A DNA stretch of 33,828 bases from a bacterium. GTDB lineage: Bacteria > Verrucomicrobiota > Kiritimatiellia > RFP12 > UBA1067. This document shows, piece after piece, positions 2,009 to 16,345 of this stretch (the stretch's first letter is position 1; each line of letters starts with the position of its first letter). The notes beneath the pieces are model-generated. The model searched no databases. It worked only from the letters and a program-made list of their open reading frames with translations, and was not told where the DNA came from. Both the position numbers and the translations under genes were made by a program. Location: contig JAUNMP010000032.1 in NCBI GenBank assembly GCA_030537465.1, positions 1 to 33,828 of the forward strand, given 5' to 3'.

Positions 2009-2078
2009 TCCTAACCCTGAACCTTCAACCTTGAACCCGGACCATTGAACCTTGAACCCGGAACTTGAAACTTCTACA
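2009..2078 (-). repeat. Heptad array A (single arm, GTTC orientation)
   Basis: Nine consecutive 7-bp units without indels run from 2009 to 2071. On the plus strand they read as variants of CTTGAAC, so on the transcribed strand they read GTTCAAG. The next heptad (2072-2078) holds the TAG stop of the DUF1501 gene in phase. The array fills the gap between that stop and the AGGAT ribosome-binding site of the PPC-type gene. Confidence 0.85.
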
Positions 2079-3264
2079 CGTAGATTTCCTTCAGGCGTCC
2101 GTGTTCGGACTGGGGCGGCAGGATGGTGTACTTCTTGCCGAGGTTGTTGGGCAGATTGCCATCGGGATCGATTCCGCAGCGTTCATAGATCGAGCCGAGG
2201 AAATCAACCGGCGTGACGGGACGCTCCACGACCTTCGAGGCCGTCTCGTCGCTCTTACCCACCACGCAGCCACCCTTGAAGCCACCGCCGGCGATGAGGG
2301 CGTTGAAGCACTTCGAGTAGTGGTTGCGCCCGCCGTTCCATGGCGGATCGCGGTCGATGCGCGTCGTGCGGCCGAACTCGCCGCTCACCCAGACGATCGT
2401 CGTGTCGAGGAGCTTCTTCGCCGCGAGGTCCGTCAGCAGCGCGGCCAGCGCTCGGTCGGTCTCGGCGGTGCGGTTCCGCATCGTCTCGAAGTGGCGCTTG
2501 TGCGAATCCCACCCGGGCATGTTCACGGTGATGTACGGCACGCCGTATTCGACGAGACGGCGCGCGGCCAGCAGACTCTGGCCGATGTGCGTGCGGCCGT
2601 AGCGGTCGCGCGTCTCGGGGGACTCCTGCTTGAGGTCGAAGGTCTTGGCGGCGCTGCCCTCGATGATGTGGCGCGCCTTCTCACCGGCGGCGAAGTAGTC
2701 CTTGAAGCGCCTCTTCTCGCCGAAGTGGTCCACCATCTTGAGCAGGTCGAAGCGGCGGGACATCTCCTCGGGTGAGAGTCCGCCCGGAGGCACGATGCCA
2801 TCCACGACGAACTGCGGTCCGTTCGGGTTGCCGCCCGTCACCAGAGGGGCGTACCGATCGCCCAGGAAGCCCACCTCGCTGAAGCGTCCCTTCGCCTGGG
2901 TGAGGATCACGTACGGAGGCAGATCGCCCTGGTAGGACTTGTCGCGCGTCTTCATCATCGCCGTCACGGTGCCGATCGCGGGGAAGACGTCGCCGCCGCC
3001 GGGATTGCGCCCCGTCTGCATCAGATAGGTGGCCGTCTCGTGCCCTGCGTGCGGATGGGTCATGGACCTGATCACGGAGAAGAGGTTCCCGCACTTCGCG
3101 AGCTCCGGCCACCACTCGTGGACGGAGAGCCCCGGCGCATTGGTGGGGATTGCCTTCAGGCCGTTGTTGTAGTCCGGCGACGCATCCGGCTTGGGGTCGA
3201 AGGTCTCAAGCTGGCTCGGACCACCCCACAACCAAATCTCGATGACACTTTGGGCGTGTTTCAT
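2074..3264 (-). CDS. DUF1501 family protein lacking an export signal
   Basis: This 396-residue protein belongs to DUF1501, a family with an alkaline-phosphatase/sulfatase-like fold that is abundant in planctomycetes and relatives. Hallmarks are WLWGGPSQLETFDPKPDA at residues 11-28, SMTHPHAGHETATYLMQTG near 70, the NMPGWDSHKRHF block and the VSGEFGRTTRID block that contribute metal-site-like D, H and E residues. Most family members carry about 40-60 residues with a Tat signal before the GGPSQ motif. Here the motif begins at residue 14 and no signal is present. The ATG at 3264 directly abuts heptad array B and has no Shine-Dalgarno, so the 5' end may have been altered by the insertion. It follows the DUF1549/DUF1553 gene, its usual partner. 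Confidence 0.88.
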   Translation of the reverse strand: MKHAQSVIEIWLWGGPSQLETFDPKPDASPDYNNGLKAIPTNAPGLSVHEWWPELAKCGNLFSVIRSMTHPHAGHETATYLMQTGRNPGGGDVFPAIGTVTAMMKTRDKSYQGDLPPYVILTQAKGRFSEVGFLGDRYAPLVTGGNPNGPQFVVDGIVPPGGLSPEEMSRRFDLLKMVDHFGEKRRFKDYFAAGEKARHIIEGSAAKTFDLKQESPETRDRYGRTHIGQSLLAARRLVEYGVPYITVNMPGWDSHKRHFETMRNRTAETDRALAALLTDLAAKKLLDTTIVWVSGEFGRTTRIDRDPPWNGGRNHYSKCFNALIAGGGFKGGCVVGKSDETASKVVERPVTPVDFLGSIYERCGIDPDGNLPNNLGKKYTILPPQSEHGRLKEIYV

Positions 3265-3390
3265 GTTCAAAGTTCCAAGTTCAAAGTTCCGGGTTTCAGG
3301 TTCAAAGTTTCAGGTTCCGGGGTCAAGGTTCAAGGTCCCGGGGTCAAGGTTCAAAGTTTCAGGTTCCGGGTTCAAAGTTCAAGGCTCTAG
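3265..3390 (-). repeat. Heptad array B (18 perfect-period units, right of DUF1501 start)
   Basis: Eighteen contiguous 7-bp units with no indels fill exactly 126 bp. On the plus strand each begins with G and follows GTTCNRR: GTTCAAA, GTTCCGG, GTTTCAG and GGTCAAG are the main variants. The trio GTTCAAA-GTTTCAG-GTTCCGG occurs at 3300-3320 and again 49 bp later at 3349-3369, a higher-order repeat. The last unit (3384-3390) contains the TAG stop of the four-helix-bundle gene, and the first unit abuts the DUF1501 start codon. Confidence 0.93.
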
Positions 3391-3791
3391 ACGGCTTTCG
3401 GAAGATTGTAGCGGGGGCCGGAGAAGTTGGATGTCGTCAGGGACTTGATCAGGCAATAAATACGAGTGCCAATCGCCTTGGCCTCGGCATGCAGATTTCT
3501 GAATTGTTCAGCATCTATGTATCCATTGTCATAGGCAATGTAGAGCTGTGAGGCAACCTCTCCCGCCGATCCCTTGGCAATCCAGAGAAATTTTATGAAT
3601 TCCTTGTTTCCTGCCCGTTCATACCCCTCTGCGATGTTTGATGAAATGGAAACCACGGCTCGTTGTATCTGATCCCGAAGTCCGTAATCCCTGGAGAAAG
3701 CATCTGTTCGTGCAACGGCATATATCCTCGAAGCAAGAACCCGTCCCTGCTTCCACACATCAATGTCCTCGAATTGCCTGAATGCCGCCAT
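3387..3791 (-). CDS. Four-helix-bundle protein (23S rRNA-IVS / Avd-like family)
   Basis: This 134-residue protein matches the family long annotated as 23S rRNA-intervening-sequence or four-helix-bundle protein, which is related in fold to the Avd accessory protein of diversity-generating retroelements. Visible hallmarks are F-x-D-x-x-VWKQGRVLASRIY at the N terminus, RDQIQRAVVSISSNIAEGYER at about 39-59 (quoted here only as a motif region), and the EFIKFLWIAKGSAGEVASQL helix. The family forms basic pentameric barrels that bind nucleic acid. There is no rRNA here. The gene sits inside an operon, bracketed by inverted heptad arrays, and is clearly less GC-rich than its neighbours, which suggests transfer. 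It has its own AAAGGA Shine-Dalgarno 7 bases before the ATG at 3791. Its TAG stop is part of array B. Confidence 0.92.
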   Translation of the reverse strand: MAAFRQFEDIDVWKQGRVLASRIYAVARTDAFSRDYGLRDQIQRAVVSISSNIAEGYERAGNKEFIKFLWIAKGSAGEVASQLYIAYDNGYIDAEQFRNLHAEAKAIGTRIYCLIKSLTTSNFSGPRYNLPKAV

Positions 3792-3818
3792 TACTCGATC
3801 CTTTCACATTCAAATTCC

Positions 3819-3908
3819 CGAAACCCTGGAACCCGGAACTTGAAACTTGGAACCTGGACCTGGACCCCGGAACTTAGAACCTGAAACTTTGAACTTGGAA
3901 CCTTGAAC
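3819..3908 (-). repeat. Heptad array C (13 units, upstream of the four-helix-bundle gene)
   Basis: Twelve heptads and one hexad (3854-3859) make up 90 bp. On the plus strand the units are variants of CTTGAAC, TTGGAAC, CCGGAAC and CTGAAAC, which is the reverse complement of the array B unit. It starts directly after the GGAGGG that follows the DUF1549 gene stop and ends about 27 bp before the start of the four-helix-bundle gene. Confidence 0.92.
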
Positions 3909-10134: not shown

Positions 10135-10692
10135 CTATGCGCTGACAACGGCGGTCAACGACTGGTCGTGGAGTTCCGAGGGGATCACGTCCACGAACTG
10201 GAACGAATGCGCCACGCCCAGTTTGAGAGATTCCGGGGAGGACTTCCGCAGCATGCGGTCGTACCATCCGCCGCCGTAGCCGATGCGTCCGCCACCCCGC
10301 GTGAACGCGAGCCCGGGAACGATCCAGACGCCAATATCCTGTTCGGCGACGGGGTTCACCTCAGCCGGTTCAAGAATATGGCACCGCCCCTCCACCAAGG
10401 TCGTGGTGTTGTCGTAGGCGCCCAGCACATAGACCTTCTCCTCTGCATTCCAGCAGGGCACCGCCACGGTGACGTCGGCGGCCCAAAGCGCCTCGATCAG
10501 AGGCGTGAGATCGATTTCGTCCGGCGAAGCCAGATAGACGGAGAACGGGCGGTGCTTCTCGATCGCCTCACGCACGTCGGGACGGTCCAGCACAGCGGCG
10601 CAAATCTCGTCGGAAGCAGAGTCCCGCTCCTTCGCGGTCAGCTCGCGTCGCAGGGCACGCATTCTCGCCCGTATTTCGTCTTTGCTGTTCAA
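10135..10692 (-). CDS. 5-formyltetrahydrofolate cyclo-ligase
   Basis: This 185-residue enzyme converts 5-formyl-THF to 5,10-methenyl-THF using ATP, in cytoplasmic one-carbon metabolism. Recognisable parts are the N-terminal KDEIRARMRALRRELTAKER helix, the YLASPDEIDLTPLIEAL segment, VPGLAFTRGGGRIGYGGGWYDR (phosphate-binding glycine loop and invariant YDR region) and the end FQFVDVIPSELHDQ. The conserved N-terminal helix begins at the second or third codon, yet the only start that includes it is a TTG (10692) made of the last heptad of array D. The next ATG, at 10662, would cut off ten residues. FolD, acting on neighbouring one-carbon folates, is also encoded in the window. The HAD gene follows. 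Confidence 0.9.
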   Translation of the reverse strand: MNSKDEIRARMRALRRELTAKERDSASDEICAAVLDRPDVREAIEKHRPFSVYLASPDEIDLTPLIEALWAADVTVAVPCWNAEEKVYVLGAYDNTTTLVEGRCHILEPAEVNPVAEQDIGVWIVPGLAFTRGGGRIGYGGGWYDRMLRKSSPESLKLGVAHSFQFVDVIPSELHDQSLTAVVSA

Positions 10693-10831
10693 GGTTCAAA
10701 GTTCCAGGTTCAAGGTTTCAAGTTCAAGGTTCTAGCTTCTAGGTTCAAGGCTTCGGGCAGGATCGTTTAAGTCACCTGAATCTTTGGACTTTGAACCTGA
10801 AACCTGGAACTTTGAACTCGGAACTCTGAAC
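10687..10831. mobile_element. Heptad array D: gene-less inverted pair
   Basis: The left arm (10687-10749) is nine GTTCAAG-type heptads on the plus strand. The right arm (10776-10831) is eight CTTGAAC-type heptads. Neither arm has an indel. They are separated by 26 bp with no gene. Orientation and order match arrays B and C around the four-helix-bundle gene, so this looks like an empty version of the same cassette, or a hairpin element. It occupies almost the whole gap between the RNase D stop and the cyclo-ligase start. Two units, GTTCTAG and CTTCTAG, resemble the variant array G. Confidence 0.82.
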
Positions 10832-10838
10832 TCGCATG

Positions 10839-11942
10839 TCAGACGTTAAACCTCTCGGCTATTTCGCGGCCGAAGTTCTCAAAGCGCCAGCCCGTCGCAA
10901 GGGGATTCTCCTCGTCGTCGGGATTGTCCACATAGGCCGTTACCGTCGCACGATTCGCCACGATGGCCGGATCCACGTGAATCGCCTCGGCATGCTCGCG
11001 GATAAAGGCGATGGCCTGGTCCGCGGCGTCGAGGACCTCGGAGATGTAGCGCGGACGCGGATTCTCGGGCCATTCAGTCTCGGGGACGGCAAGCCCTTCC
11101 CGGACGGCGGCGGCGAATTCGCCCGCCAGCGTGTCGCGTTGACCGCGATTGCGCAGACGGTGACGGAAGCGCAGACGATCCGCCTCGATCTCGGCCCGAT
11201 CCGCCATCTCGGCAAGAGACGCATCGTCCGCCAGCCAGGTCTTCGGCAGATTCCATTCGCGCGCCAGCATCTCGCGCGTTGCCGCCAGGGCGCGCAGCAC
11301 GGCGAAACCGCGCCGGTCCAGGCGCACGCGCCCACACTTCACGCGCTTCCAAACCTCCTGCGGATCGGCATCGCCGTAAAGGGACGGGTCATCGTAGCGG
11401 GCCATCTCCTCGTCCAGCCAGGCACGGGTGCCCAGCGCGTCGGCCCGTTTCAGCAGTTCGGCGCGGACTTCGCCAAGATATCGGACGTCGTCGAGCGCGT
11501 AGGAGATCTGCGCGTCTGTGAGCGGACGCTGCATCCAGTCCGTCGTCGTCTCGGTTTTGGCGAGACCGACGTCCACCGTCTCCTGCACGAGCTTCTGCAG
11601 GGAAAGCCCCGCAGGAAGTCCCGCGAAGGCGGCCGCGAGCTGCGTGTCGAAGACGTTCACGGGCTTCGCGCCCGTGTAGTGGAAAAGATGGTCGAGGTCC
11701 TGGTGCGCGTCGTGCAGCACCTTCACGGTTCCTGCGTCGGCCAGGAGCTCCGCGAGCGGCGCGGTGTCGAGCGCGAGCAGGCAGTCCTCGACCCAGCTCG
11801 TGCCATCCAGGGCCCCAAGCTGCACGAGGGCGAGCTTGGGACGATTGGTGTTCCGCCAGACGAACTCGGTGTCCAGCGCGGCGAGGCCACCGGCCCGCAG
11901 GCCCGCGCAAACCTCCTTCAGTTCCGTGGCGTTGCGGATCAT
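10839..11942 (-). CDS. rnd: Ribonuclease D
   Basis: This 367-residue DEDD-family 3'-5' exoribonuclease takes part in tRNA 3'-end maturation. Exo I is ALDTEF (D24, E26), Exo II is HDAHQDLDHL (D82) and Exo III is YALDD (Y148, D152), so all four acidic residues and the tyrosine are present. An HRDC-like helical region with RRGFAVLRALAATREMLAREWN follows at about 205-270. The ATG at 11942 gives the conserved N terminus and lies one base after the esterase stop, so translation is probably coupled. Array D and the folate and HAD genes lie downstream. Confidence 0.92.
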   Translation of the reverse strand: MIRNATELKEVCAGLRAGGLAALDTEFVWRNTNRPKLALVQLGALDGTSWVEDCLLALDTAPLAELLADAGTVKVLHDAHQDLDHLFHYTGAKPVNVFDTQLAAAFAGLPAGLSLQKLVQETVDVGLAKTETTTDWMQRPLTDAQISYALDDVRYLGEVRAELLKRADALGTRAWLDEEMARYDDPSLYGDADPQEVWKRVKCGRVRLDRRGFAVLRALAATREMLAREWNLPKTWLADDASLAEMADRAEIEADRLRFRHRLRNRGQRDTLAGEFAAAVREGLAVPETEWPENPRPRYISEVLDAADQAIAFIREHAEAIHVDPAIVANRATVTAYVDNPDDEENPLATGWRFENFGREIAERFNV

Positions 11943-11943
11943 G

Positions 11944-13329
11944 TTACTTGACTGCGCCCTCGATCGTGAAGTCCTGATTCGGAGCCGGCGGCACATAGCC
12001 ATGCGTGGACCCCTGCACCCACCAGATCTTCTTGTTGGTGCCAGGGATGTTGTTGTACATCTTGGCAAGGCCCGTGGGCGGGCAGCAGTAGTCGCCGAGT
12101 CCGGCGCGCGTGATGATCGTCTGGCAGGTCGTGGGGATGCGCTTCGCGAAGTTGGCGGCGTCGTAGTAGCCCATCGCTTCCGTCCAGGGAATGTACCAGC
12201 CGTCGCTCGCGAGATTCTGCGCGGGATCAAGGCGGAGCTTGCCGCTCGTGTACATGTCGCAGCACCAGGTGATGCCGCTCTCGGCACGGGTGAGGCTTTC
12301 GCCGCAGCCGGCCGCCCAGATGGTCTGGAGACCGCCCTGGCTGCCGCCGGACGCGATCAGGTCCTTGCCGTTCCACTCGGGCAGCGTCTTGAGGTACTGG
12401 AGGGCGCGCTTGACGCGCAGCACCATGCCGTTGAAGTACGCGACCTCGGGATCGGCGTTCTGCAGGGCGTCGAAGGCATAGCTCTTGTCGTGCGAACGCG
12501 TCTCCCAGCGAAGCGCCTTGCGGTCCGCCTCGGTAGCGCCGAACTCCTTGAGCTTCTGACCGTGCGCGTTGATGTTGAGCACGACCTCGTTGTCGCGCGC
12601 CCAGCCGGGAGCGTCATGCTGGCAGCGGTCGCCGCTGTAGCCATGCGTCTCGAGGCGGCAGGGGAACTTCGCGCCCTTCTCGGCGGCGGTCGGAATTGTG
12701 AGGTAGCCCGTCACGGGACGGAGACCGGCACACGCGATCTGCACCGCATAGATGCGGGCCTTCGGATTGCCGCACTTCACCTCCACGCGCTCGGCCTTGA
12801 TCGGAACGAGCTTCAGACGCTCGGCCTGCGTTGCCCAGAAGGCGTCGAAGTCCTTGGGCTCCGGATGGGACTGGAGCTTGTCGATCTGCACGCCGGCGCC
12901 ACCATCGAAGAAGATGCGGCGGTCACGACGCTCGAATTCGTTCTGGGCGCGCTTGCCCTCAGGCGTCGTCGTGTCGCCCGTGTACTTCTTGCGGTAGACC
13001 TGGCCCTTGCCGTCGACGAGCTGGGCGCGCACGCGGACAAACCCAGGACGGTCGAGCGACGTCTTGATCACGATCGGCTTCGTGAGATCGGCTGGCACCT
13101 TCTCGCCGAACTTCTTGCCGTCGTCGCCGAAGCGCTCCCAGTTGATGAACCACTGACCTTCCGGCAGCTTCTCGATTTTGTCCAGCTTGAGCGTGAACGT
13201 CATCTCCTCGCCCGGAGCGTAGTCGATCGCGCGCTTATCCGTGGAACCGCGCAGAAGGCCGTTATCCAACTCACCAGCGAAGGCGGACGCAACCGCCAGC
13301 GCGAACATCGAAAACATCTTAATTCTCAT
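11944..13329 (-). CDS. Secreted acetyl xylan esterase-like hydrolase (CE7 family)
   Basis: This 461-residue protein has an N-terminal signal peptide (MRIKMFSMFALAVASAFA), a beta domain to about 140, and an alpha/beta-hydrolase domain of the CE7 / cephalosporin-C deacetylase type. The catalytic triad appears complete: S330 in GGSQGG, D413 in RAGLGDYCCPP and H443 in GSTHGY. The ETHGYSGD oxyanion-loop region is also present. The expected role is deacetylation of plant xylan or of acetylated oligosaccharides outside the cytoplasm. I chose the ATG at 13329 because AGAAAGG lies 5 bases upstream. A TTG start seven codons earlier is less likely. It has its own strong promoter and leads into rnd. Confidence 0.88.
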   Translation of the reverse strand: MRIKMFSMFALAVASAFAGELDNGLLRGSTDKRAIDYAPGEEMTFTLKLDKIEKLPEGQWFINWERFGDDGKKFGEKVPADLTKPIVIKTSLDRPGFVRVRAQLVDGKGQVYRKKYTGDTTTPEGKRAQNEFERRDRRIFFDGGAGVQIDKLQSHPEPKDFDAFWATQAERLKLVPIKAERVEVKCGNPKARIYAVQIACAGLRPVTGYLTIPTAAEKGAKFPCRLETHGYSGDRCQHDAPGWARDNEVVLNINAHGQKLKEFGATEADRKALRWETRSHDKSYAFDALQNADPEVAYFNGMVLRVKRALQYLKTLPEWNGKDLIASGGSQGGLQTIWAAGCGESLTRAESGITWCCDMYTSGKLRLDPAQNLASDGWYIPWTEAMGYYDAANFAKRIPTTCQTIITRAGLGDYCCPPTGLAKMYNNIPGTNKKIWWVQGSTHGYVPPAPNQDFTIEGAVK

Positions 13330-16282: not shown

Positions 16283-16345
16283 ATTCAGCCTTCAACCTTG
16301 AACCTTGAACTTTGAACCTTCAACCTTGAACTTTGAACGTTGGAC
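16283..16345 (-). repeat. Heptad array E (single arm, GTTC orientation)
   Basis: Nine heptads without indels occupy 16283-16345. On the plus strand they are CTTGAAC, TTTGAAC and CTTCAAC variants. The array lies between the GH31 stop (16355) and the GGAGG of the thioredoxin-like gene. In transcription sense it reads CAAGGTT repeated, the same orientation as arrays A and C. Confidence 0.88.

Follow-up and report, generated by a model that had tools for sequence, protein, structure and literature searches.

A gene-less pair of facing heptad arrays and its relation to IVP gene cassettes

Positions 10687 to 10831 of the window, the whole 33,828-nt stretch of bacterial DNA that was analysed, hold two arrays of seven-nucleotide words that face each other and enclose no gene. 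Arrays of the same word flank a gene for a four-helix-bundle protein (IVP) elsewhere in the window. This raises the question of whether the gene-less pair derives from such a cassette, was selected as a hairpin or arose in place as a repeat. The reading we favour, at a probability of roughly 0.55, assigns the pair, as a member without a gene, to a dispersed family of insertion units; the gene-bearing members carry IVP, and movement of the family would be linked to that protein.

The gene-less pair and the IVP cassette in the window

The relevant features of the window are:
2009..2071, minus strand: single array of nine units; fills the gap between two co-directional genes
3265..3390, plus strand: left array of the gene-bearing cassette, about 18 units; extends to the ATG of gene 2074-3264
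3387..3791, minus strand: IVP gene (23S rRNA intervening-sequence protein; four helix bundle protein, PF05635 / TIGR02436), 134 aa
3826..3908, minus strand: right array of the gene-bearing cassette, 12 units with one frame slip
10135..10692, minus strand: 5-formyltetrahydrofolate cyclo-ligase (5-FCL, PF01812); neighbour downstream in transcription
10687..10749, plus strand: left arm of the gene-less pair, nine GTTCNRR heptads
10750..10775, no strand: loop of the gene-less pair, 26 bp; not common to the loops of other pairs
10776..10831, minus strand: right arm of the gene-less pair, seven clear heptads (10783-10831) and one degenerate unit (10776-10782)
10839..11951, minus strand: RNase D-like 3'-5' exonuclease (PF01612); neighbour upstream in transcription
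16290..16338, minus strand: single array of seven units; fills the gap between two co-directional genes

The left arm (plus strand) consists of the units GTTCAAG, GTTCAAA, GTTCCAG, GTTCAAG, GTTTCAA, GTTCAAG, GTTCTAG, CTTCTAG and GTTCAAG. These nine units are free of indels, and two of them deviate from GTTC. On the minus strand, the right arm reads from 10831 inward GTTCAGA, GTTCCGA, GTTCAAA, GTTCCAG, GTTTCAG, GTTCAAA and GTCCAAA, followed by the degenerate GATTCAG. The nine and eight facing heptads across 26 bp described in the first-pass annotation were thus present, with the eighth right unit degenerate. Their array scores were 17.5 and 12.9, whereas 20 dinucleotide shuffles of the whole window yielded none above 4.6. 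The pair sits between the stop codon of the RNase D-like gene and the start of 5-FCL, both on the minus strand. The stop codon is 7 bp from the right arm, and the TTG start of the 5-FCL frame falls inside the outermost heptad of the left arm. The single arrays at 2009-2071 and 16290-16338 (GTTCNRR) take up nearly the whole of their intergenic gaps.

As RNA, the pair had a predicted fold of -55.1 kcal/mol (z = -5.65), and 0 of 200 shuffles were as good, in agreement with the earlier suggestion of a hairpin made from the same units. Apart from one tRNA, no known RNA family was found in the window, and it held no rRNA.

The word of the pair is that of the gene-bearing IVP cassette (3265-3908) in the same genome. 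The relative orientation of the arms around the IVP gene, plus for 3265-3390 and minus for 3826-3908, is also the same, as the annotation had stated. IVP is the sole gene of the cassette, and an enzyme able to cut or copy DNA is absent inside the cassettes. A search of the genome yielded only three IVP genes, and GTTC arrays flank just the one in the window.

Arrays across the genome, with filled and empty sites in congeners

Like the other genomes, that of the window (G000, 5.19 Mb) is a draft, and several arrays lie at contig ends. Its arrays were catalogued by two pattern searches and from the stretches fetched around the matches, and the genes around them were called with a small codon-usage model. 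The exact three-unit pattern GTTCNRRGTTCNRRGTTC gave 77 + 107 = 184 matches in the genome, compared with 4 + 0 for the reversed control. The fetched stretches held 71 array sites, of which 52 were single (a count that takes each arm of the IVP cassette as one single site) and 19 were close pairs, so the window pair does not stand alone. All 19 cases of neighbouring arrays within 250 bp were facing; none was divergent or tandem, and none enclosed a gene. About 19 gene-less close pairs and about 50 single arrays stand against a single gene-bearing cassette, so that gene-less sites are in excess by about 70:1. Contigs C22, C63, C270, C327, C377 and C431 start or end in or near heptad arrays, and some pairs hold runs of N; the true number of arrays is therefore likely higher.

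The loops of the pairs ranged from -5 to 160 bp and were mutually unrelated, and the unit numbers differed. An arm matched its own partner no better than it matched the arms of other pairs (permutation test, P = 0.99). Complementarity between the arms of a pair therefore does not serve as evidence that a hairpin was selected or duplicated, and a freshly duplicated hairpin is unsupported. Intergenic array sites lay between aligned (co-directional) genes in 51 of 54 cases, between convergent genes in 3 and between divergent genes in 0, compared with 102 aligned, 7 convergent and 9 divergent gaps among array-free neighbours in the same stretches. In single arrays, the median distance to the nearest gene was 5 bp for the outer (5') edge and 21 bp for the inner edge (one-sided Wilcoxon P = 0.03). 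The G000 sites examined were in or between predicted protein genes, not in a 23S rRNA helix.

Other genes were considered as cargo and rejected. Only ordinary genes (RidA, a GNAT acetyltransferase, a HIT protein) lay between or beside far-apart arrays, which therefore look like unrelated neighbouring sites. Some arrays or facing pairs lay within predicted, still-open reading frames (L038:370-432, L050:1476-1524, L055:8029-8102, L059:1434-1503, L065:2473-2554). Second or third heptad words, ACTGAAR and GTTACAG, adjoined GTTC arrays at L047 near 2570, L087 near 3536 and L070 near 2511.

The GTTC word occupies about 70 places in G000 and is hardly used in most close relatives. Arrays were also present in G008 and G010, both incomplete genomes in which no IVP was found. 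This distribution bears on the explanation that the arrays are simple-sequence repeats which polymerase slippage created on the spot, in gaps free of constraint, with IVP having landed in or near them. The variable unit numbers, the many single arrays and the unrelated loops would fit such an origin, and earlier work on bacterial heptamers has proposed slippage at 7-nt units (PMC4692102, PMC4679880). However, slippage does not account for one word at so many places in a genome whose close relatives mostly lack it, or for neighbouring pairs that all face each other. It also sits poorly with the matching arms at IVP genes in unrelated phyla and with a 182-bp gene-less unit that interrupts an open reading frame and has copies in 36 plasmids, both described below. 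We regard it as already disfavoured and an unlikely source of the arrays.

Filled and empty sites exist for both IVP cassettes and gene-less pairs, and both kinds of insertion occur at one plasmid junction. At the IVP cassette site the stop-to-start distance is 649 nt in G000 versus 26 nt in three congeners (G010, G012, G015), and the original 26 nt are missing from G000. For five gene-less pairs (L052, L075, L077, L079, L089), the flanking genes are also adjacent in G008, G010, G012 or G015, where the orthologous gaps are shorter and hold no GTTC array. Two G000 gaps, at the L077 pair and at the single array of L087, hold a different word, GGTGAGAN, in G008, and one gap can therefore be used repeatedly. 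The old spacer was often lost, rather than merely interrupted, at the G000 insertions. For the window pair, no empty site was found through RNase D orthologues in close relatives, because its two neighbour genes are not adjacent there. We therefore infer its insertion from its relatives. A hairpin with another word (GGAGTTT-like) follows the RNase D stop codon in G002 (L105) and is absent in G003 (L106).

The pairs might instead be RNA hairpins selected between cistrons for stability, processing or translational uncoupling, with IVP as an RNA-binding user. The stable predicted fold is consistent with this, as is the location between co-directional genes with an outer edge a few base pairs from a gene. 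The heptamer repeats of Xanthomonas are mostly transcribed (PMC4692102), and IVP is in the same family as Avd, the accessory protein of the reverse transcriptase system in diversity-generating retroelements (PMC10053308). However, pairs are missing at orthologous junctions of congeners, the arms are not matched to each other and some units are inside genes. Selection for an RNA hairpin thus seems rather improbable as the origin of the pairs.

Spacer loss would be accounted for if the pairs were repair scars, in which a templated polymerase had added the same word to both 3' ends of a double-strand break before the ends were joined. The exclusively facing orientation, the short and unrelated loops, the unmatched arms and a spacer replaced between stop and start codon agree with such a process. 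The conserved loops and ends of the Nostoc units described below do not, nor do IVP-bearing cassettes at the same positions, and no enzyme has been identified. Repair scarring therefore appears to be an unlikely cause.

IVP genes and their arrays in other bacteria and on plasmids

IVP genes of relatives were flanked by facing tandem arrays of other words, e.g. AGTGGCT, GAGCTTG, GTGGTTC and GGAGAAC. For a wider survey, one genome per species was scanned across more than 20 phyla with one conserved peptide pattern, and the best-matching 80 IVP loci were taken. Counting arrays within 300 bp of IVP gave 34 upstream and 38 downstream, while control windows placed 600 bp further out held 3 and 4. 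With periods of 4 to 15 allowed, the 72 arrays had a period of 7 in 52 cases, 8 in 10, 9 in 6 and others in 4. Both arms were present at 56 of 122 IVP loci from more than 20 phyla, and in 51 of those 56 the arms were the same word inverted; the median similarity was 0.71, versus 0.00 in direct orientation and 0.00 to other loci. The upstream arm was G-rich on the strand of the IVP gene in 65 of 74 cases. Word similarity climbed with IVP identity, from 0.03 (30-40%) through 0.23 (60-80%) to 0.76 (>80%), values that are uncorrected for shared ancestry. Facing arrays of a common word thus flank IVP genes across bacteria, and the word tracks the IVP lineage. From the sequences, the correlation would fit a word that its IVP reads, or one that moves together with its IVP.

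The word beside an IVP gene was also found elsewhere in the same genome. G098 and G099 contained GTTC words (120 matches, and 5 that were all GTTCCGA, respectively) and no GGCGT arrays, while G104 had 31 matches to GGCGTCR and no GTTC arrays. The GTTC count of G098 is less clean, since this genome has 35 matches to the reversed control. Since several words are present in G100 and G101, word and IVP do not correspond one to one. At L139 and L140, the facing units beside IVP are not heptads but longer, at about 21 bp (a hairpin plus CTGGTTTGA). Within L214-L233 (277 kb of G015), 8 of 10 tandem arrays of 5-13 bp units had a period of 7 or 8, with the words GTTTGARR, GTTTCGRR and GTTTCGG.

Plasmids of Nostoc and other cyanobacteria provided further filled and empty sites. 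An operon of hypothetical genes is conserved in nine Nostoc plasmids. At its C-D junction, L426, L440, L444 and L445 read 'TAG GTT ATG', and L439 and L441 carry an IVP cassette. A second junction is empty in L434, L435 and L438. At this second junction, L428 and L433 have an IVP cassette with the word AGGGAAC, L436 a gene-less facing pair of the AGGGAAC word type, and L437 a gene-less pair with a different word. An IVP gene found intact in L439 and L441 is interrupted in L443 by a gene-less pair of 182 bp. This 182-bp unit occurs at 54 places in 36 Nostocales plasmid records, often at full length and sometimes in genes, and its copies have conserved loops and ends. A possible 3-bp target duplication (TCA) was seen at L437 and none at L443. 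All eight plasmid IVP genes inspected had facing short tandem arrays, mostly of 7-mers, and one such IVP cassette lies between nrdB and nrdA in Nostoc edaphicum. A Calothrix case, in which one IVP is present on two plasmids, was set aside as evidence of element-sized movement, as the two share a 3.6-kb common block.

The first-pass annotation had taken the gene-less pair for a non-autonomous, MITE-like derivative. The first half of this proposal gained ground from the 19 facing gene-less pairs that share the cassette's word, from the Nostoc junction occupied in both ways and from the dispersed 182-bp unit. The second half did not hold in its classical sense. There was no fixed terminus, consistent target duplication or transposase between the arrays, and the G000 pairs with their unrelated loops, differing unit numbers and unmatched arms, among arrays that are mostly single, do not look like copies of one MITE. 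An ordinary MITE mobilised by a DDE or Y1 transposase encoded elsewhere would have short inverted ends, no gene and a dispersed distribution, and the full-length copies in Nostoc plasmids and the possible TCA duplication would suit it. However, in addition to the missing terminus and duplication, the gene common to the cassettes is IVP, and the two Y1 transposase genes of G000 are not near arrays. An ordinary MITE is a very improbable explanation.

Known repeat families and a possible route of movement

In 23S rRNA intervening sequences, an IVP gene lies in the loop of an inserted hairpin. The present element has a gene of the same protein family (PF05635, TIGR02436); however, it is found in protein operons and its stem is made of tandem heptads. 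Eukaryotic foldback elements have long inverted ends of short tandem subrepeats, with or without a gene in the loop, whereas the present element is bacterial, has 7-bp units and no known transposase, and carries IVP as its only gene. REP/REPIN sequences with RAYT are dispersed intergenic palindromes tied to one protein family. In contrast, IVP is not a Y1 nuclease, and arrays are found instead of single palindromes. A REP/RAYT system was rejected for G000, whose only two Y1 transposase genes (L092, L093) are both away from arrays.

The closest precedents are the GGGAATC repeats of Xanthomonas and the GGGGA(T/C)T repeats of Nostoc, which are tandem, dispersed 7-bp words located mostly between aligned genes and near stop codons (PMC4692102). 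In Xanthomonas, 70 and 75 convergent gene-less pairs per genome were counted in 2015; the authors proposed a G-quadruplex function and found generally no association with mobile elements (PMC4692102). Facing gene-less heptamer pairs were therefore already known, with no cause given, and the window pair, as convergent gene-less arrays between aligned genes, belongs to that kind of feature. The words differ here and flank IVP genes. X. campestris itself encodes an IVP, XCC0516, whose structure (2gsc) is the closest solved relative and is described, in a reference cited in PMC10053308, as a ring of five four-helix bundles. Neither XCC0516 nor 23S turned up in a search of the main text of PMC4692102. 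The TAACTGA repeats of Beggiatoaceae and others are intergenic heptanucleotide arrays, patchy between lineages and in some cases in genes, and their author raised the possibility that the mobile element is a protein which binds the repeats (PMC4679880). They differ from the present arrays in having one direct word and hardly any inverted pairs, and a term search of the text returned no IVP link. Our literature search, which had preprints and most subscription journals outside its reach, found no paper tying IVP to heptad arrays.

How might the favoured family of insertion units move? The unit would consist of two facing arrays of tandem 7-bp words, able to form a hairpin and inserted in a short gap between co-transcribed genes, with IVP as the one gene in the loop of gene-bearing members. 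IVP may recognise the word or the hairpin and may help to move or copy gene-less units in trans. In the simplest reading, the moving form would be an IVP-bound hairpin of DNA or RNA, with nucleases, polymerases or reverse transcriptases presumably supplied by the cell. Slippage could then alter array length and yield single arrays and unequal arms, and the bias to gaps between aligned genes can stem from selection. A classical cut-and-paste transposase is disfavoured by the frequent spacer loss and by the absence of a target duplication of constant length; both leave a break-repair route open. The frequent loss of original spacers is not predicted by simple insertion. The absence of a DNA-cutting or DNA-copying enzyme from the cassettes, the unrelated loops, the unmatched arms, and the arrays of G008 and G010 where no IVP was found also count against this best explanation, as do the two of three G000 IVP genes that lack GTTC arrays.

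We know of no agreed origin for the heptamer arrays of unrelated bacteria, and of no role for the common IVP/four-helix-bundle genes outside rRNA insertions and reverse-transcriptase systems. The tie between such arrays and IVP cassettes with lineage-varying words appears to be new; the route of movement is our reconstruction. Joining the two gives a candidate function for IVP and a candidate source for heptamer repeats. It also predicts a binding code, in which the word seen by an IVP should be deducible from its own flanks. If confirmed, such elements would form a mobile class that lacks a transposase and is active enough to reshape the gaps between co-transcribed genes. More tentatively, and with somewhat less confidence than an even chance, IVP with facing heptad arrays may form a widespread transposase-less class in which IVP reads the word and the word drifts along with IVP, and gene-less pairs that are moved in trans may account for much of the unexplained bacterial heptamers, including those of Xanthomonas and heterocystous cyanobacteria.

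On two cyanobacterial plasmids (L430, L432), IVP cassettes were located inside CRISPR operons, between cas6 and cas4 and between cas10 and a cmr3-like gene. Such insertions may explain the reported association of IVP with CRISPR (PMC10910872).
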